From contig JANQGC010000341.1 of the NCBI GenBank assembly GCA_028277515.1, forward strand, positions 1 to 19,213: DNA of 19,213 bases, read 5' to 3'. The notes below the pieces were generated by a model. The model made no database searches. It was given only the letters and a program-made list of their open reading frames with translations, and was not told the DNA's origin. Below are positions 3,189 through 17,148 of the stretch, one piece after another. The translations under genes were made by a program, and so were the position numbers. Source of the stretch: Anaerolineae bacterium. GTDB taxonomy: Bacteria > Chloroflexota > Anaerolineae > Promineifilales > Promineifilaceae. Position 1 is the stretch's first letter. Each line of letters begins with the position of its first letter.

Positions 3189-4424
3189 ATGGGTCAAACA
3201 TTAGCCGAACAAATCATTAGCCAAAAAGCCGGTAGAAAGGTGACACCGGGGGAACTGGTGATCGTCGAACCGGATGTCGTTATGGGTCATGATTCGCTTT
3301 CTCCGGGGATCATCCGCATCATGACGGAACAACTAGCTATCGAGAAGGTGCACAACCCCGATCATATTGTTTTGGTTTTAGATCATGTCGCTCCTGCATC
3401 AACCGTAGGCACGGCCAACAGCCAAAACTTGATTCGCCAATTCGCCCGGAATCAGGGCATTCGCCTGTTTGAAGTGGGCCACGGCATCTGCCACCAGGTG
3501 TTGGTGGAAGAAGGCATCGCCCAACCGGGAATGATTGTGCTTGGCTCGGATTCCCATTCGACCAGTTATGGGGCTGTCGGGGCGTTTGGATCGGGCATGG
3601 GTTCCACCGATATCGCTTTGATTTGGGGGACCGGCAAAACCTGGCTGCGCGTTCCGGAAACCATTCGATTGCAGTTCAAGGGACGCTTCCAACGGGGTGT
3701 GGATGCAAAAGACCTGGCCTTAAAGCTGTGCCGGGAGATGGGTATCGCTGGAGCCACCTATGCTGCCCTGGAGTATCACGGTCTCGATTGGCTGCCACTT
3801 CCAGGAAGGCAGACAATGGCCAGTATGGCCATAGAACTGGGGGCTAAAGCTGGGATTTTCCCACCGCAGAACGATGGGAATGGTGATGTTTCCGTTCCTG
3901 ATTGGCTCTTTGTTGATCCGCAGGCTGAATATGCTGAAACGCTAACGTTTGATTTAAACGATCTGGAACCTCAAATCGCCAAACCGAGTGCTGTGGACGA
4001 TGTTGTTGACCTTTCAGAAGTGATAGATACAAAGATCGATGTGGTTTTTCTGGGGACATGCACGAATGGGCGGTATGAAGATATGCGCGCCGCGGCCGAT
4101 ATTTTAAGAAACCAGACCATTTCAGAGCAAGTGAGATTTTTGGTAACACCGGCTTCGCGCCGCGAACTGCGACGGGCGATGGCGGACGGCACAATGGACA
4201 TTTTATTAAGCGCCGGAGCGACGCTGACAACGCCGGGTTGTGGCGCGTGTATGGGACGGCACCAGGGAACGTTGGGTGACGGGGATGTATGCCTGTCTAC
4301 CGGCAACCGCAATTTTTTAGGGCGTATGGGATCGCCAGATTCTAAAATTTACCTGGCTTCGCCCACTGTCGCGGCTGCAAGCGCGCTTTCCGGCCGCATA
4401 AGCGATCCGCGGATTGTATATTGA
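3189..4424 (+). CDS. lysT: Homoaconitase large subunit
   Basis: The 411-residue protein is the iron-sulphur subunit of homoaconitase, which with LysU converts homocitrate through cis-homoaconitate to homoisocitrate. It belongs to the LeuC/LysT branch of aconitases. The three [4Fe-4S] ligands are visible: Cys291 in FLGTCTNGRYED, and Cys351 and Cys354 in TPGCGACMGRH. Other signatures are VDHVAPAST-like DHVAPAST, VGHGICHQVLVEEG, GSDSHSTSYGAVGAFGSGMGSTD and the C-terminal STGNRNFLGRMGSP. An AAAAGGA at 3175-3181 is 7 bases before the ATG. It is followed 28 bases later by lysU. LeuC (isopropylmalate isomerase) cannot be excluded from sequence alone, since both share these motifs, but the position between homocitrate synthase and homoisocitrate dehydrogenase supports LysT. 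Confidence 0.9.
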   Translation: MGQTLAEQIISQKAGRKVTPGELVIVEPDVVMGHDSLSPGIIRIMTEQLAIEKVHNPDHIVLVLDHVAPASTVGTANSQNLIRQFARNQGIRLFEVGHGICHQVLVEEGIAQPGMIVLGSDSHSTSYGAVGAFGSGMGSTDIALIWGTGKTWLRVPETIRLQFKGRFQRGVDAKDLALKLCREMGIAGATYAALEYHGLDWLPLPGRQTMASMAIELGAKAGIFPPQNDGNGDVSVPDWLFVDPQAEYAETLTFDLNDLEPQIAKPSAVDDVVDLSEVIDTKIDVVFLGTCTNGRYEDMRAAADILRNQTISEQVRFLVTPASRRELRRAMADGTMDILLSAGATLTTPGCGACMGRHQGTLGDGDVCLSTGNRNFLGRMGSPDSKIYLASPTVAAASALSGRISDPRIVY

Positions 4425-4452: not shown

Positions 4453-4956
4453 GTGACAGTTAGCAAAGGAATTGTGTGGAAATTTGGGGCTGACGTGGAT
4501 ACTGATCAAATTGTTCCTGGAAGGTATGCGCCTTATATGCGGCCGAACGCCGATGTGGGGGACGCGGCTTTTATTGAAGCGCACCCGGAATTTAATAAGC
4601 ATGCCAGGCCAGGAGATGTCATTGTCGCTGGGTCAAATTTTGGCTGTGGTTCATCGCGCGAGTATGCGCCATATGCTTTGAAAAGAAGAGGCATCGCCGC
4701 TATTTTCGCCATTGATTTTGCCCGTATTTTTTACCGCAACGCCATTAATTTAGGGATTCCCGTTTTTTCATCGGAGATTGCCATGAGTCTAATGGATAGG
4801 GATGAAGTGATATTGGATTTGAATGAAGGCACGATACAGGCGAACGCTAACATTTTCCAGCTTCCCGACTTACCCTCATTCGCACGAACGATTATAGATG
4901 CCGGCGGTATTGTGCCCTATGTGCGCGAGCACGGAAATTTTCCTGGGGTGAATTAG
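4453..4956 (+). CDS. lysU: Homoaconitase small subunit
   Basis: This 167-residue swivel-domain protein is the partner of LysT. It shows the family opening KFGADVDTDQIVPGRY and the loop GSNFGCGSSREYAPYALK (Gly60 onward), where the Ser-Ser-Arg segment forms part of the substrate-binding site in the aconitase superfamily. A Tyr-Ala-Pro run in that loop is typical of the LeuD/LysU small subunits. The start is GTG at 4453, supported by AGAGGAG at 4438-4444 with an 8-base spacer. The stop TAG is followed with no gap by the ATG of the dehydrogenase gene, so the two are surely translated from one message. LeuD is the alternative identity; context favours LysU. Confidence 0.9.
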   Translation: MTVSKGIVWKFGADVDTDQIVPGRYAPYMRPNADVGDAAFIEAHPEFNKHARPGDVIVAGSNFGCGSSREYAPYALKRRGIAAIFAIDFARIFYRNAINLGIPVFSSEIAMSLMDRDEVILDLNEGTIQANANIFQLPDLPSFARTIIDAGGIVPYVREHGNFPGVN

Positions 4957-5940
4957 ATGCCCGATTTATGTGTCATTGAGGGTGATGGGATTGGCCGCGA
5001 GGTGATTCCGGCTGCGGTAGAAATATTGCAGGCGGCCGTTCCCAATTTGCATATCATTGAGGCTCAAGCCGGTTGGGATTATTTCCTGGAAAATGGTGTT
5101 TCTGTTCCACAATCAACTCTTGAAATGATTCGTGACTGCCGTGCAGGGTTGTTTGGCGCCGTCTCTTCGCCCGCCCGCCCTGTTGAAGGGTATCGCAGCG
5201 CCATTCTTACTATGCGTCAGGAGCTAGATCTTTATGCTAACATTCGGCCGGTACAAAGTCGGCCAACGGTATCACCTGTTGAAGATGTTGATCTGATTGT
5301 TGTGCGCGAGAACAGCGAGGGTTTATATGTCGGCCGTGAGCAATGGATAGGGGATGCCGCTATTGCGGAGCGTATCATTTCAAAAAAAGGATCGCTTCGC
5401 ATAGCCAATAAATGTTACCAGTTGGCCACTTTGCTTAACAGGGAAAGAATAACAATTGTCCATAAGGCCAATGTAATGCCATTAACGGATGGGTTATTCC
5501 GAGATACCGTTCTAGAAGTTGTGTCAGAACAATTCACGGTGGATGAGCTGCTTGTGGATGTAGCGGCTTTGAAAATGGTGGCTGATCCACATTCATTTGA
5601 TGTCATCGTTACCCCTAATTTATATGGTGATATTTTGTCGGACGCGGCTGCTCACTGGGGTGGAGGCCTGGGATTGGCGCCATCTTTAAACTGGGGAGAT
5701 GAGATGGCCATAGCTGAGCCTGTTCATGGGTCCGCGCCGGATATTGCCGGCAAAGGGGTGGCCAATCCAATTGCGGCGGTTTTGAGTGGGGCTTTGCTGG
5801 TGCGTTATGTATGGCAGAATGAATCTGCGGCCGATCGAATCGAGTCGGCCGTTTATCAAACCCTGCGGCAATCGCCGCAGGGTTTCAGCGGCACGCAAGA
5901 GATTAACAAAAAAATATTAGACAATATGGATCGGATCTAA
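4957..5940 (+). CDS. hicdh: Homoisocitrate dehydrogenase
   Basis: The 327-residue protein is an NAD-type beta-decarboxylating dehydrogenase that oxidises homoisocitrate to 2-oxoadipate and CO2, completing the front half of the pathway encoded here. It has the family start VIEGDGIGREV, the substrate-contact region LTMRQELDLYANIRP (Arg87, Arg97), VRENSEGLYVG, KANVMPLTDGLF, and the metal signature NLYGDILSDAAA (Asp225, Asp229), ending with EPVHGSAPDIAGKGVANP. The length matches the short bacterial homoisocitrate/isocitrate group rather than 3-isopropylmalate dehydrogenase (about 350). It begins immediately after the lysU stop, without a spacer, so it is likely translated by coupling. It is the last gene of the visible lysine operon; the next gene lies on the other strand. 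Confidence 0.9.
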   Translation: MPDLCVIEGDGIGREVIPAAVEILQAAVPNLHIIEAQAGWDYFLENGVSVPQSTLEMIRDCRAGLFGAVSSPARPVEGYRSAILTMRQELDLYANIRPVQSRPTVSPVEDVDLIVVRENSEGLYVGREQWIGDAAIAERIISKKGSLRIANKCYQLATLLNRERITIVHKANVMPLTDGLFRDTVLEVVSEQFTVDELLVDVAALKMVADPHSFDVIVTPNLYGDILSDAAAHWGGGLGLAPSLNWGDEMAIAEPVHGSAPDIAGKGVANPIAAVLSGALLVRYVWQNESAADRIESAVYQTLRQSPQGFSGTQEINKKILDNMDRI

Positions 5941-12665: not shown

Positions 12666-13484
12666 ATGATGAACTGGCACAATATTATGCAGAGCTGGGA
12701 TGACCAGCAAACAGCTTATCTCCCTTACCGGGAGGAACGTTTTAAGGTTATGCTTGATGTTCTGGACAGTCTCTTTGATGGCAAATTCAACGTTCTTGAC
12801 CTGGCGTGTGGACCAGCCTCAATCAGCGCCCGGGTTTTGGATCGTTTTCCAGCAGCACGCTGCATCGCGGCCGATATTGATCCAATTTTGATGGAAATAG
12901 GCAAACAGGTGTTGGATGCAAACCCGCGAATAACCTGGTTGGATATAGATCTCAACCATCCTTCCTGGTCAGTAAATGGCAATGATTCCCTCGGTTGGTT
13001 GAAAACACAATCGATTGATGCAGTCCTGACCACTACAGCGTTACACTGGCTCCCTCCAGAGGCGCTCACCCGCGTCTATCTTGAGCTTGGGGACATACTT
13101 GCTCCGGGTGGAGTGGTCATGAATGGTGACCATATGATGTTCTTACCGCACATGACAACTTTTCGCCAGTTGAGCGAATCAGCAAAGGAACAACAATACC
13201 GGAAGGCGTTTGACTTTGAAAGTAAACCTGATTACGCAGCATGGTGGCAGTCGCTGCGGGATCAGCTATTGCAGACCGACCCCGAGCTATATGGTCAAAT
13301 GTTCGAAGAGCGGGAACAACGATTTAAGAGCCATCAAGGAGATTTTAGCGAGCCGATTCGCTTGATGCACCAGGCGGCTCTGCACAACGCCGGGTTTGTA
13401 GAAGTTGGACCCATTTGGCAACGCTTCGATAACTGTGTATTGCTTGGCATTCGCGGTCTGAAGCAGGCACCTGTCAAAAATTAG
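12666..13484 (+). CDS. Class I SAM-dependent methyltransferase
   Basis: The 272-residue soluble protein has the Rossmann-type methyltransferase core. Motif I is VLDLACGPASIS (residues 43-54), motif II is CIAADIDPILMEIG with the ribose-binding acidic residue near 70-72, an acidic WLDIDLN follows, then the motif IV-like TTTALHWLP (about 103-110) and a motif VI-like ILAPGGVVMNGD. This resembles small-molecule methyltransferases such as trans-aconitate or ubiquinone/biotin-type enzymes; the substrate is not evident. AGGAG at 12653-12657 is 8 bases before the first of two successive ATG codons (12666 and 12669), so the first is used. The gene diverges from the XRE regulator, which probably controls it. 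It is followed after 69 bases by the tRNA promoter. Confidence 0.87.
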   Translation: MMNWHNIMQSWDDQQTAYLPYREERFKVMLDVLDSLFDGKFNVLDLACGPASISARVLDRFPAARCIAADIDPILMEIGKQVLDANPRITWLDIDLNHPSWSVNGNDSLGWLKTQSIDAVLTTTALHWLPPEALTRVYLELGDILAPGGVVMNGDHMMFLPHMTTFRQLSESAKEQQYRKAFDFESKPDYAAWWQSLRDQLLQTDPELYGQMFEEREQRFKSHQGDFSEPIRLMHQAALHNAGFVEVGPIWQRFDNCVLLGIRGLKQAPVKN

Positions 13485-13553
13485 GCGAAATGTATAAGGA
13501 ACTTTGTGACTGATGCCTGGCTTCGGAACAGCGTGATCTATCGATTAGTCTCC

Positions 13554-13582
13554 TTGACAAGCCCCCAATGCTGAGCTAAGAT
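13554..13582 (+). promoter_or_regulatory. Near-consensus sigma-70-type promoter for the tRNA-Ala/T-box/leuS transcript
   Basis: TTGACA at 13554-13559 and TAAGAT at 13577-13582 are separated by exactly 17 bases. Transcription should begin at about 13589-13590, a few bases before tRNA-Ala(CGC). No equally good promoter is visible between this tRNA and the T-box Stem I, nor before the second tRNA, so one long transcript through both tRNAs into leuS is plausible. Confidence 0.8.
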
Positions 13583-13595
13583 TCAGGTCGCTTTC

Positions 13596-13668
<73 letters not shown>

Positions 13669-13725
13669 CAGAGCGCAGGTGTGAAAGCGACAAGTTACAC
13701 GCTTGTGACCATTGCAATATTTAAA

Positions 13726-13825
13726 AGCTGAGATCAGGAGTAGTAGATACGGGGCTGATTTGCTCACCAGAGAGCTGTCTCGAAGGCTGAAAAGGCAGCA
13801 AATGTATTGAACTCGCCTGTGAGCT
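13726..13825 (+). ncRNA. T-box Stem I with Leu (CUC) specifier
   Basis: The base helix pairs AGCT 13726-13729 with 13822-13825. A kink-turn (GAGAT opposite TG) leads to CAGG 13735-13738 paired with CCTG 13816-13819. Next comes the S-turn AGTAG (13739-13743) facing the specifier loop GAACTCG, where CTC at 13812-13814 sits between GAA and a purine as expected. ATAC 13747-13750 pairs with GTAT 13804-13807, and ATTTGCT 13758-13764 with AGCAAAT 13797-13803. The conserved ACCAGAGAG bulge (13766-13774) and the distal loop GGCTGAAAAGGC (13785-13796) complete the domain. Confidence 0.9.
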
Positions 13826-13888
13826 GTGATGGTGAATTGTTTAGCTGTCACCGGTTAGCGGCCGTTATACGTTTAAGTGGATAGTCAT

Positions 13889-13961
13889 GGGCCCATAGCT
13901 CAGTTGGGAGAGCGCCACAATGGCATTGTGGAGGTCAAGGGTTCGAGTCCCTTTGGGTCCA
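13889..13961 (+). tRNA. tRNA-Ala (anticodon GGC), inside the T-box leader
   Basis: A full cloverleaf forms. Acceptor GGGCCCA pairs with TGGGTCC including G3-U70, the D arm is GCTC/GAGC, the anticodon stem is CCACA/TGTGG with loop ATGGCAT, and the T stem is AAGGG/CCCTT with TTCGAGT. Anticodon GGC reads GCC and GCU. Discriminator A is at 13961 and CCA is not encoded. No promoter of its own is visible, and it lies 63 bases after Stem I and 37 bases before the T-box sequence. Confidence 0.96.
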
Positions 13962-13998
13962 CTTTAGCCTAAGGCATTACCGGGCATTTTCTATCAAT

Positions 13999-14030
13999 CA
14001 GAGTGGTACCGCGGAACCCTTTCGTCTCTG
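13999..14030 (+). promoter_or_regulatory. T-box sequence and antiterminator
   Basis: CAGAG 13999-14003 pairs with CTCTG 14026-14030, and GCG 14011-14013 with CGT 14023-14025. Between them is the classic bulge TGGTACC (14004-14010), whose UGGU would pair with ACCA of an uncharged tRNA with discriminator A. The sequence GTGGTACCGCGG is nearly the textbook T-box. Confidence 0.93.
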
Positions 14031-14047
14031 AACGAAAGGGTTTTTTT
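14015..14047 (+). terminator. T-box-controlled intrinsic terminator
   Basis: AACCCTTTCGT 14015-14025 pairs with ACGAAAGGG plus TT (14032-14042) around loop CTCTGA, and seven T occupy 14041-14047. Its 5' arm and loop are the same bases that form the antiterminator, giving the exclusive switch. Confidence 0.93.
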
Positions 14048-14075
14048 GTTGTTGAAATTTTTCAGCCATTTGAAT

Positions 14076-14080
14076 CAGGG
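14076..14080 (+). promoter_or_regulatory. Shine-Dalgarno-like site that decides the hydrolase start
   Basis: CAGGG lies 9 bases before the TTG at 14090, downstream of the terminator. It indicates that translation starts at this TTG and not at the in-frame GTG at 14003, which is inside the T-box bulge. Confidence 0.55.
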
Positions 14081-14089
14081 AAACTGGTT

Positions 14090-14683
14090 TTGAACGATAT
14101 TTACATTAATATTTCGCAAACGACAGTATTTGGAAAAGCGGCGGGTGACCCTGGTAATTTGTTGGTTTTAGGTCTCCATGGCTGGAGTCAACGCAATGGC
14201 TGGCATACCTGGCAACCTATGATTGAACCATTGGCTGATGCCGGATTTTTTGTCGTGAGCGTTGATATGCCCGGCTGGGGGAAAAGTTCTCCCACCAGCG
14301 ATTCACCCCTGGTTGGAAAGGCAGCGGTAGAAGTTATCATCGAGATCTTAGATGCGTTGGAAGTTGACAGAGCTGCTTTGATGGGAAAAAGTTGGGGGGG
14401 AGGTGTTGCCGTCAAAACGGCCGTAGATTTTCCCGACCGGGTCAGTCACCTGATTTTAACGGCTCCGGCCTTACGTAATTATGGACAATTGAAGTCACTT
14501 CAACAACCAGCCCTACTCGTCTGGGCAGAAGATGATCCGGTTATTCCAATGGCTCACGCGCAACGCTTTATTGACGCTGTTCCCCACACCGTATTGGTTA
14601 CATATAAAAACGGTGGCCATAGCGCTGCCCCGAAAAATGCAGATGATTTCGCCCCGAAAGCGATAGAATTCTTACATCATTAG
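14090..14683 (+). CDS. Small alpha/beta hydrolase
   Basis: With the TTG start the protein has 197 residues and the minimal alpha/beta hydrolase fold without a lid. Motifs are the oxyanion region LGLHGWSQRNGW, the strand FVVSVDMPGWGKS, the nucleophile elbow GKSWGGG (Ser), the acid in WAEDDPVIP, and the catalytic His in NGGHSAAP. It resembles the ABHD14-like group of short serine hydrolases; the substrate is unknown. The longest open frame begins with GTG at 14003, but that codon and the first 29 codons lie in the T-box antiterminator and terminator, so they are leader RNA. The gene is under T-box control and ends 17 bases before leuS, so it is in the same transcript. A role linked to leucine or aminoacyl-tRNA metabolism is only inferred from position. 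Confidence 0.82.
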   Translation: MNDIYINISQTTVFGKAAGDPGNLLVLGLHGWSQRNGWHTWQPMIEPLADAGFFVVSVDMPGWGKSSPTSDSPLVGKAAVEVIIEILDALEVDRAALMGKSWGGGVAVKTAVDFPDRVSHLILTAPALRNYGQLKSLQQPALLVWAEDDPVIPMAHAQRFIDAVPHTVLVTYKNGGHSAAPKNADDFAPKAIEFLHH

Positions 14684-14700
14684 GGAGTATTTATATCTTT

Positions 14701-17148
14701 ATGACCATTCAATATAATCCCGGAGAAGTAGAGGCTAAATGGCAGAAAATTTGGTCTGAAACGGATCTGTACAGACAGACAATCGACACTTCCAAGCCCA
14801 AACATTATGCCCTGACGATGTTGCCCTATCCATCGGGCGACTTGCACATTGGGCATTGGTATGCCATGGCTCCGAGTGATGCAAGGGCCAGATTTATGCG
14901 CATGAAGGGTTTTAATGTCCTGTTTCCTATTGGATTTGATGCCTTTGGATTACCGGCTGAAAATGCGGCCATTCAGCGCAATATCCATCCGGCAATCTGG
15001 ACGTTTGACAACATTGAAAATATGCGTGGGCAGTTACGCAGTATGGGGACTATGTTTGATTGGGAACGGGAAGCGGTGTCGGCCGATCCTTCATATTATA
15101 AATGGACCCAATGGTTTTTCAAAAAACTCATCGAAATGGGATTAGCTTATCGTCAGATGGCAGCGGTCGATTTTTGCCCCAACTGCAATACGACATTGGC
15201 CAGAGAACAGGTATGGGGCGAAGATAATCATTGCGAACGCTGCGGAACGCCAGTTATTAAAAAAGACCTGGAACAGTGGTTCTTCAAAATAACCGATTAT
15301 GCCGAGGAACTGTTAGATTTCAGCGAGATCAATTGGCCCGACCGCGTAAAATTGATGCAGACCAATTGGATCGGCCGCTCCGAAGGGGCTAATGTGACAT
15401 TCCACACGGAATTTGGTGACCCCATCGAAATTTTCACGACCAGGCCAGATACATTGTGGGGGGCAACGTTCATGGTTCTGGCGCCTGAGCATCCCTTAGT
15501 TGATAAAATCACAACGCCTGAACAAGCCGTGGATGTATTAGCCTACCGAGAGCAGGCGAAACGATTAAGCGAGATCGACCGTGAGGCTGCGGATAGGGAA
15601 AAAACCGGCATTTTTACCGGGGCATACGCTATTAATCCGGTCAATAATGCCCGCATTCCCATATGGATCGCCGATTATGTGTTGATGACCTATGGCTCCG
15701 GCGCCATTATGGCTGTTCCGGCTCATGATGAACGAGATTTCGAGTTCGCAACAAAATACGGCCTGGAAATCATTGAAGTTATTCAAATGCCAGGGCGAGA
15801 AGATTCGGTTGGTCCATTGACAGAAGCGTTTACATCGAAAAGTGAAGGGGTCATGATCAACTCCGGCCAATTTGATGGCACGTCGGTTAAAGATGCCATA
15901 TCAACAGTGACAACCTGGCTGGAAGATGAGGGCAAAGGTGAGGGAGCGGTCAATTATCGCTTGCGCGATTGGTTGATCAGCCGCCAACGTTATTGGGGCG
16001 CACCTATTCCCGTTGTGTATTGTCCGGATCATGGCGCTGTGCCGGTGCCGGATGAAAAGTTGCCCGTTCTCCTGCCGGAGGATGTGGAGTTTGTGCCGAC
16101 CGGTGAGAGTCCTTTGAAATTTCATGATAGTTTCCTGCATACGGAATGCCCTGTTTGTGAAAAACCGGCGCTCAGGGAAACGGATACGATGGATACATTT
16201 ATGTGCTCATCATGGTACCAATATCGCTATCTAAGTCCTGATTATGAACTTGCTCCTTTCGATCCTGAAGAAGGAGCTTATTGGCTGCCCGTTGACCAAT
16301 ATACAGGTGGGATTGAACATGCAACGATGCACTTGATTTATACACGCTTTTTCACCAAGGCGATGCGCGAGATGGGACTGGTAGAATTTGATGAGCCGAT
16401 GCTGGCTTTGTATAACCAGGGTATGGTTCTCGGTGAGGACGGCGAGAAAATGTCTAAATCGCGAGGGAACGTCGTCGCGCCTGATAGTTTAGTGGATGCG
16501 TACGGGGCAGACACGGTCCGAACATATCTGATGTTCTTTGCCAAATGGGACCAGGGAGGTCCCTGGAACTATGATGGCATTAAAGGTCCGCAGCGTTTGT
16601 TAAATGATGTCTGGGATTTGGCAATGACTGGCTACGAATCCGGATCAATTGAGCAAAAAGCAAACCAGGCTTTACAACGCAAGACACACCAGGTGATTCA
16701 AAAAGTCACCGAAGATTTTGAAGGTTTTTCATTTAACACGGCCGTTGCGGCGATCATGGAACTGCGCAACAGTTTGCAAGCGGCGCGGCGTGAGAAAAAT
16801 GTTGCTGAAGCAATCTGGCATGAAGCGGTGGATAATATGCTGCTGTTATTGGCGCCTATGGCACCGCATATCACGGAAGAGTTGTGGTCGCAGCGAGGCA
16901 AATCATATAGCATTCACCAACAGTCCTGGCCGGTATGGGATCCAGATATTGTCAAGGAGGAAAGTATTACTCTCATTGTTCAGGTCAATGGTAAGGTGCG
17001 TGACCGGATGGTTGTCCCTGCCAATACGGATGATGATGACCTGCGCAAATTAGCTCTGGCTTCAGAAAATGTTCAGCGATATCTGATTGACAAAGAACCA
17101 CGAAAGGTCATTGTTGTAAAGGGCAAATTGGTAAACGTCGTAGTTTAA
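14701..17148 (+). CDS. leuS: Leucyl-tRNA synthetase
   Basis: The 815-residue class Ia synthetase charges tRNA-Leu in the cytosol. It shows PYPSGDLHIGH (HIGH at 49-52), a zinc-ribbon insert CPNCNTTLAREQ with CERCG, the CP1 editing domain with the threonine-rich TTRPDTLWGAT (246-255) and the Asp-containing VPAHDERDFEFA, the catalytic LRDWLISRQRYWG, the leucine-specific METDTMDTF-like TMDTFMCSSWYQ, and KMSKS at 583-587. The C-terminal anticodon and LeuS C domains end with VNGKVRDRMVVPA and VIVVKGKLVNVVV. The length is normal for bacteria. GGAG at 14684-14687 is 13 bases from the ATG, somewhat far. The T-box with CUC specifier upstream matches its role: low charged tRNA-Leu would raise its expression. 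A terminator follows 31 bases after the stop. Confidence 0.97.
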   Translation: MTIQYNPGEVEAKWQKIWSETDLYRQTIDTSKPKHYALTMLPYPSGDLHIGHWYAMAPSDARARFMRMKGFNVLFPIGFDAFGLPAENAAIQRNIHPAIWTFDNIENMRGQLRSMGTMFDWEREAVSADPSYYKWTQWFFKKLIEMGLAYRQMAAVDFCPNCNTTLAREQVWGEDNHCERCGTPVIKKDLEQWFFKITDYAEELLDFSEINWPDRVKLMQTNWIGRSEGANVTFHTEFGDPIEIFTTRPDTLWGATFMVLAPEHPLVDKITTPEQAVDVLAYREQAKRLSEIDREAADREKTGIFTGAYAINPVNNARIPIWIADYVLMTYGSGAIMAVPAHDERDFEFATKYGLEIIEVIQMPGREDSVGPLTEAFTSKSEGVMINSGQFDGTSVKDAISTVTTWLEDEGKGEGAVNYRLRDWLISRQRYWGAPIPVVYCPDHGAVPVPDEKLPVLLPEDVEFVPTGESPLKFHDSFLHTECPVCEKPALRETDTMDTFMCSSWYQYRYLSPDYELAPFDPEEGAYWLPVDQYTGGIEHATMHLIYTRFFTKAMREMGLVEFDEPMLALYNQGMVLGEDGEKMSKSRGNVVAPDSLVDAYGADTVRTYLMFFAKWDQGGPWNYDGIKGPQRLLNDVWDLAMTGYESGSIEQKANQALQRKTHQVIQKVTEDFEGFSFNTAVAAIMELRNSLQAARREKNVAEAIWHEAVDNMLLLLAPMAPHITEELWSQRGKSYSIHQQSWPVWDPDIVKEESITLIVQVNGKVRDRMVVPANTDDDDLRKLALASENVQRYLIDKEPRKVIVVKGKLVNVVV

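Follow-up and report, generated by a model that had tools for sequence, protein, structure and literature searches.

Can a riboswitch function when its core has to be severed afterwards to release another RNA, and does severing it have any consequence? The question is raised by a 19,213-nucleotide stretch of DNA from an Anaerolineae bacterium (hereafter the window), in which a leucine-sensing T-box riboswitch upstream of leuS holds a complete gene for tRNA-Ala(GGC). T-boxes permit read-through when their cognate tRNA is uncharged and terminate transcription when it is charged; tRNAs, for their part, are excised from their precursors by RNase P and 3' nucleases. We argue, at a probability of roughly three in four, that this leader is an old, double-purpose one: a leucine-sensing T-box that is also a source of tRNA-Ala(GGC), which is later cut out.

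The T-box, which like all features described here lies on the forward strand, has the parts of its family in the family's order. The Rfam T-box model (RF00230) aligns along its complete length (1–219) at positions 13721–14032 of the window (89.0 bits, E = 5.5e-20), around a 104-nt insertion that contains an intact tRNA-Ala(GGC). The untruncated alignment takes in Stem I with its specifier loop (approximately 13726–13825), in which motif and alignment agree on a CUC leucine codon at 13812–13814 within GAACUCGCC; the region of Stem II and Stem IIA/B (approximately 13826–13869); and the antiterminator (14000–14032), whose UGGN bulge is the UGGUACC at 14004–14010. A terminator scan placed the competing intrinsic terminator with its U tract at 14013–14047 (stem 14013–14044). 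The motif RRRxG-Stem III-AA reads AAGUG-GAUAG...CUAUC-AA, with AAGUG at 13875–13879, the two strands of Stem III at 13880–13884 and 13991–13995, and AA at 13996–13997. Between the strands, at 13889–13961, lies the embedded tRNA-Ala(GGC), a 73-nt cloverleaf with a GGC anticodon that keeps G3:U70, does not encode its CCA, and is called both by RF00005 (65.9 bits; cut-off 29) and by ARAGORN. The loop of Stem III is made up of 4 nt, the tRNA and 29 nt, so that the tRNA is in effect mounted on the tip of Stem III. At 89.0 bits the window's T-box falls 4 bits short of the Rfam gathering score of 93, so that a default Rfam scan reports the tRNAs alone. Minimum-free-energy folds of the leader were no better than those of shuffled sequences (z of −0.66 and 0.36) and were uninformative.

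Upstream of Stem I lies a second tRNA gene, tRNA-Ala(CGC) (13596–13668; Rfam and ARAGORN), an order common to many relatives. Directly 5' of it is a promoter-like site, TTGACA-17-TAAGAT (13554–13582), that agrees with the consensus at 10 of 12 letters; against 0.5 such sites expected by chance, this one is suggestive at most. It was the single promoter-like site returned by a simple scan of 13480–14150, the single terminator-like site being the terminator of the T-box, and the scan gave neither kind of site between tRNA-Ala(CGC) and the embedded tRNA. The first gene after the T-box encodes an alpha/beta hydrolase (mechanical open reading frame 14003–14683, with the real start codon probably 3' of the terminator), and the second is leuS (14701–17148), an 815-residue leucyl-tRNA synthetase (LeuRS) that, judged by sequence, matches the CUC specifier. 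Elsewhere in the window, at 4453–5940, are genes for an aconitase C-terminal domain protein and an isocitrate/isopropylmalate dehydrogenase family protein, possibly leuD and leuB.

Much of this had been anticipated in an earlier note made from the letters of the window. Its leucine T-box holding a complete tRNA-Ala, its Stem I of true T-box type and leuS downstream have all held up, leuS being the second gene, behind the hydrolase, and in the window the scan gave no separate promoter or terminator between the parts. The tRNA does lie between Stem I and the antiterminator, as the note had it, but in the loop of Stem III and not in a plain linker; and its suggestion that the tRNA stands in for Stem II/III as a spacer had to be given up, because Stem II, Stem IIA/B and Stem III are all present. 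Nor, by inspection, is the embedded tRNA the T-box's own ligand, as its GGC anticodon does not pair with a CUC specifier.

The arrangement recurs. In the closest named relative (locus L047 of genome G001; LeuRS 72% identical in the best segment) RF00230 likewise matches a T-box, at 3368–3667, with a tRNA-Ala(GGC) inside it at 3550–3622 and the same gene order as in the window. A generic pattern, consisting of any tRNA T-arm, a gap and TGGTACC, was run on genome samples centred on G001; within its family, 4 of 11 genomes matched with a short gap and 0 of 11 with a long one, and the wider samples gave matches in 47 of 154 genomes (order), 123 of 396 (class) and 76 of 301 (phylum). The class of G516 (L062, Peptococcaceae bacterium BRH_c4b) gave 41 of 113, and the phylum of G893 (L068, Ruminiclostridium papyrosolvens), with a stricter core, 64 of 348. 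Part of these matches arose by chance, many of them in what is apparently coding DNA, and were dropped by requiring an ARAGORN tRNA; tRNA-Ala(GGC) was thereby confirmed around G001 in 35 of 154 genomes (order) and 81 of 396 (class, plus one Ala(CGC)), and, in the three groups for which part of the matches was examined, in at least 33 of 301 genomes for the phylum of G001, at least 20 of 113 for the class of G516 and at least 38 of 348 for the phylum of G893, the samples overlapping. At 112 of 118 candidate places a tRNA stood where it was expected (111 GGC, 1 CGC), and at six there was none; less two duplicates of L047, 110 remain.

Taken over all loci examined, 199 distinct tRNAs stand just 5' of a T-box core: 197 are tRNA-Ala(GGC), one is tRNA-Ala(CGC) and one tRNA-Glu, the last (L146) a chance neighbour as judged by eye. 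The pattern itself is not specific for alanine, but which of its matches to examine was decided by eye, on a 3' end resembling that of a tRNA; the census is therefore incomplete, and a rare tRNA of another kind could have been missed. The 197 sites, window included, fall in Chloroflexota and Bacillota, mostly 5' of leuS and with a CUC specifier, and genomes with long contigs are among them (for example L249, L267 and L319). The search of related genomes that the earlier note had called for thus finds the arrangement many times over, which makes misassembly very unlikely and disposes of an insertion peculiar to the window.

In the first set, 102 of the 112 nested rows have LeuRS downstream (the other ten have none within the stretch examined, some being cut by a contig end), as do 39/39, 19/20 and 20/20 loci of further sets, where the 39 are the loci at which the pattern was seen again, a fortieth (L286) being without it; ARAGORN gave a tRNA in 18 of 20 loci of one set (not L291 or L298). 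The one locus of the 20 without LeuRS in the stretch examined, L292, has a nested T-box and an open frame that by eye resembles a group II intron reverse transcriptase. A CUC specifier motif was found in 140 of 158 loci; three of the remaining 18 are cut by a contig end, and of 11 inspected, nine have CTC in a variant context, while L218 gave a weaker specifier reading on inspection. RF00230 matched along 1–219 in 18 of 18 further chosen nested loci (39.7–134.7 bits), six of them above the gathering score; the embedded tRNA, as an insertion, explains why default scans undercall some such T-boxes. In nine Bacillota loci (L247–L255) leuS begins 1.9–2.4 kb behind the T-box; by eye, the intervening gene in the Bacillota loci inspected resembles an acyl-CoA synthetase, and the upstream genes resemble yqeK and rsfS. 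Two loci depart from the plan. At L178 (G475) Stem I is apparently deleted, with tRNA, Stem III and antiterminator retained; at L166 (G269) a tRNA-Ala(CGC) stands directly 5' of the antiterminator and the Stem I motif was not found there, which could stem from recombination between two tRNA-Ala genes or from misassembly.

According to a 2020 review (PMC7583486), T-box structures have revealed that Stem III and its flanks (5'-RRRxG-Stem III-AA-3') belong to the aminoacylation sensor, and that an antiterminator without them hardly binds tRNA; PMC7778990 gives the same motif. In most of the nested loci a helix closes around the tRNA, and this helix covaries. In a best-of test that allowed true and swapped partners the same anchor freedom, and in which swapping leaves sequence relatedness in, 131 of 192 sites have a Stem III run of at least 5 bp, G-U allowed; swapped partners gave 26.0 such sites on average and 36 at most (five of the 197 sites, with too little flank or no AA anchor, were left out). 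The helices are diverse, 44 different 5-bp versions being seen, among them GAUAG/CUAUC, GAUGG/CCAUC, GGUGG/CCACC, GUCGG/CCGAC, GGUAA/UUACC and GGCCA/UGGCC. With fixed anchors, a fraction of 0.809 of the first five positions pair versus 0.580 in shuffles (sd 0.016; 0 of 2000 as high) among 154 anchored loci of 158 with 92 distinct strand pairs, a set to which L287–L326 do not belong; looser anchors, which mis-anchored some loci, gave 0.658 versus 0.485, with all five pairs formed in 37 of 93 versus 5.2. The fixed-anchor and best-of tests supersede an earlier count that took the best anchor within 140 nt and was biased. At 51 of the 192 sites the run within 60 nt is shorter than 4 bp; by inspection, part of these have their 5' strand more than 60 nt upstream, with a longer loop, or carry one mismatch. 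By eye, L169–L174 have an extra hairpin-like inverted repeat between the 3' end of the tRNA and the 3' strand of Stem III.

Is the embedded tRNA in use? All 197 embedded tRNAs, that of the window included, carry A73 and G3:U70, the latter being the alanine identity pair; the acceptor stem is fully paired in 196, and 88 encode CCA. The reading of the embedded tRNA as a degenerate copy was rejected. A tRNA-Ala(GGC) pattern was run on 80 nested genomes, mostly drafts, out of 109: by comparison of coordinates it matched the nested place in 80 of 80, and it matched nothing else in 79, G287 having a second match. When 12 further genomes were taken for comparison, among them the nested one of L041, the same pattern gave one match in nine and none in three; as it can evidently overlook genes, the sole copy is to be understood as the sole recognisable copy. 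A sole match in 79 of 80 genomes indicates that the embedded gene probably has to mature from the leuS leader, and on these sequence grounds it is apparently indispensable. That maturation would sever Stem I and Stem II from the antiterminator, as the earlier note reasoned, follows from the anatomy and gains weight from this count; Stem III could keep both cut halves together for a time.

These observations fit a simple course of events. The leader would act as a standard transcriptional leucine T-box with specifier CUC and tRNA-Leu(GAG) as its expected ligand. By analogy with the T-box family, uncharged tRNA-Leu would bridge Stem I and the antiterminator during transcription and let the polymerase read on towards leuS, and charged tRNA-Leu would lead to termination. 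Because the tRNA-Ala lies 5' of the terminator, both outcomes would deliver it, in every round and independently of leucine. Once the switch has been thrown, the tRNA would be cut out on both sides by RNase P and 3' nucleases, within the loop of Stem III; such excision is suggested by the finding of a single gene of this kind. Stem III would tolerate an insertion at its tip, and its closing helix would keep the discriminator assembled up to the excision of the tRNA and perhaps beyond it. The sequences themselves show the anatomy and its conservation, the covarying helix, the intact alanine identity and the single recognisable copy; we infer that events run in this order and that the tRNA leaves the decision of the switch unaffected.

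A possible reading, though clearly a less probable one, makes processing part of the switch itself. Cuts by RNase P and RNase Z in Stem III would then dismantle the discriminator, release the tightly bound tRNA-Leu and set the stability of the leader, and the output of leuS would hinge on the cell's capacity for tRNA processing and on the body of the tRNA-Ala. Both expected cut sites do fall inside the aminoacylation-sensing domain, and the arrangement has been retained in two phyla despite relocation being possible; a co-transcriptional decision, however, is expected to precede processing, and long conservation could mean merely that a needed gene is trapped there. We regard as equally tentative the specific proposal that excision of tRNA-Ala ends the complex of tRNA-Leu and T-box, lets tRNA-Leu go, determines where the leuS message begins and how stable it is, and ties leucyl-tRNA synthetase output to tRNA maturation; the arrangement would have been kept since before the nested Chloroflexota and Bacillota lineages diverged or exchanged it.

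The history of the arrangement was followed on a LeuRS tree and in non-nested relatives. In a FastTree of 195 LeuRS sequences, a quick tree with many partial rows, the 145 rows that bear a T-box call for 4 changes between nested and non-nested; scoring rows without a T-box, which were checked up to 4 kb upstream, as not nested raises the number to 16. Nested rows occur in both phyla, and every one of the 18 rows in the starred set that includes the window is nested. A common origin before the nested lineages parted and an old transfer are both possible. Non-nested leuS T-boxes of Anaerolineales (L003, L008, L016 and others) share with the window the control of leuS and the proximity of tRNA-Ala(CGC) and tRNA-Ala(GGC), but there both tRNA genes lie together 5' of Stem I, and by eye Stem III forms a hairpin that is short in L016, with longer ones in L006 and L010; the gene can therefore sit outside the loop. 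At L005 and L007 the pair tRNA-Ala(CGC) and tRNA-Ala(GGC) also stands upstream of leuS, and a TGGNACCNCG core was not found there.

It is rather unlikely that the locus consists of two independent, overlapping units, a tRNA with its own promoter and a T-box whose terminator serves as the tRNA's terminator. The idea draws on 15 relatives of the window that have 59–123 nt between the RRRxG motif and the tRNA, containing promoter-like sites; the clearest, which end 16–42 nt 5' of the tRNA, are in L190 (0 of 200 shuffles as good), L187, L198, L199 and L184, and in such long-loop relatives the tRNA may have a separate transcript as well. Shuffles were beaten at 0.045 or less in just 5 of 18 long loops, however, which is suggestive at most, and three more distant long-loop loci showed no good promoter-like site. 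Most nested loci, moreover, leave too little room for a promoter wholly within the loop: the spacing from RRRxG to tRNA is below 30 nt in 126 of 154 anchored loci and 9 nt in the window, where the best promoter matches in 13670–13724 and 13826–13889 reach just 8 and 7 of 12 letters.

It is very improbable that the tRNA does no more than cap Stem III as a structural element and has dropped out of translation: its exact placement on the helix would suit such a role, but a gene that is the sole tRNA-Ala(GGC) match in nearly every genome searched, with G3:U70, A73 and acceptor pairing kept, speaks against it. Chance or artefact, whether misassembly or a tRNA that happens to lie beside an unrelated TGGTACC, has next to no likelihood, for although the search pattern alone does yield false places, full T-box matches surround the tRNA in the window, in L047 and in all 18 further loci modelled, and the arrangement recurs in long contigs.

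We return, then, to a leucine T-box that doubles as a tRNA-Ala(GGC) source, and to how it relates to known systems. tRNA genes can be co-transcribed with mRNAs, as in metY-nusA and thrU-tufB of E. coli, where a tRNA is likewise cut from an mRNA leader; those tRNAs, however, are neighbours of a ligand-sensing fold and are not enclosed by it. With leuS-type T-boxes (RF00230) the window shares a Stem I with CUC, Stem II, Stem IIA/B, RRRxG-Stem III-AA, the UGGN bulge, the antiterminator/terminator pair and leuS, and it adds to them a conserved tRNA-Ala(GGC) in the Stem III loop, about 100 nt with two expected processing sites. Insertions, role unknown, occur in every T-box domain, Stem III among them, according to the available part of the 2020 review (PMC7583486); that part names no tRNA gene as an insertion in the discriminator, and the words 'tRNA gene' are absent from its text. 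Our literature search agrees with the earlier note in finding no description of a T-box with a tRNA gene in Stem III; it covered neither of the two key T-box surveys that would be likeliest to mention one (Vitreschak 2008 and Gutierrez-Preciado 2009). T-boxes and co-transcribed tRNAs are both known, and a tRNA gene inside Stem III of a T-box is apparently new, an earlier mention being possible.

The relatives provide natural comparisons for the question with which we began: the tRNA nested, relocated, equipped with a possible inner promoter, or accompanied by a T-box from which Stem I is missing. The finding suggests that an entire folded domain can be accommodated at the tip of Stem III, which would be useful for RNA engineering. 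In two phyla, the sensing domain of a riboswitch that responds to one tRNA houses the gene for a different one.
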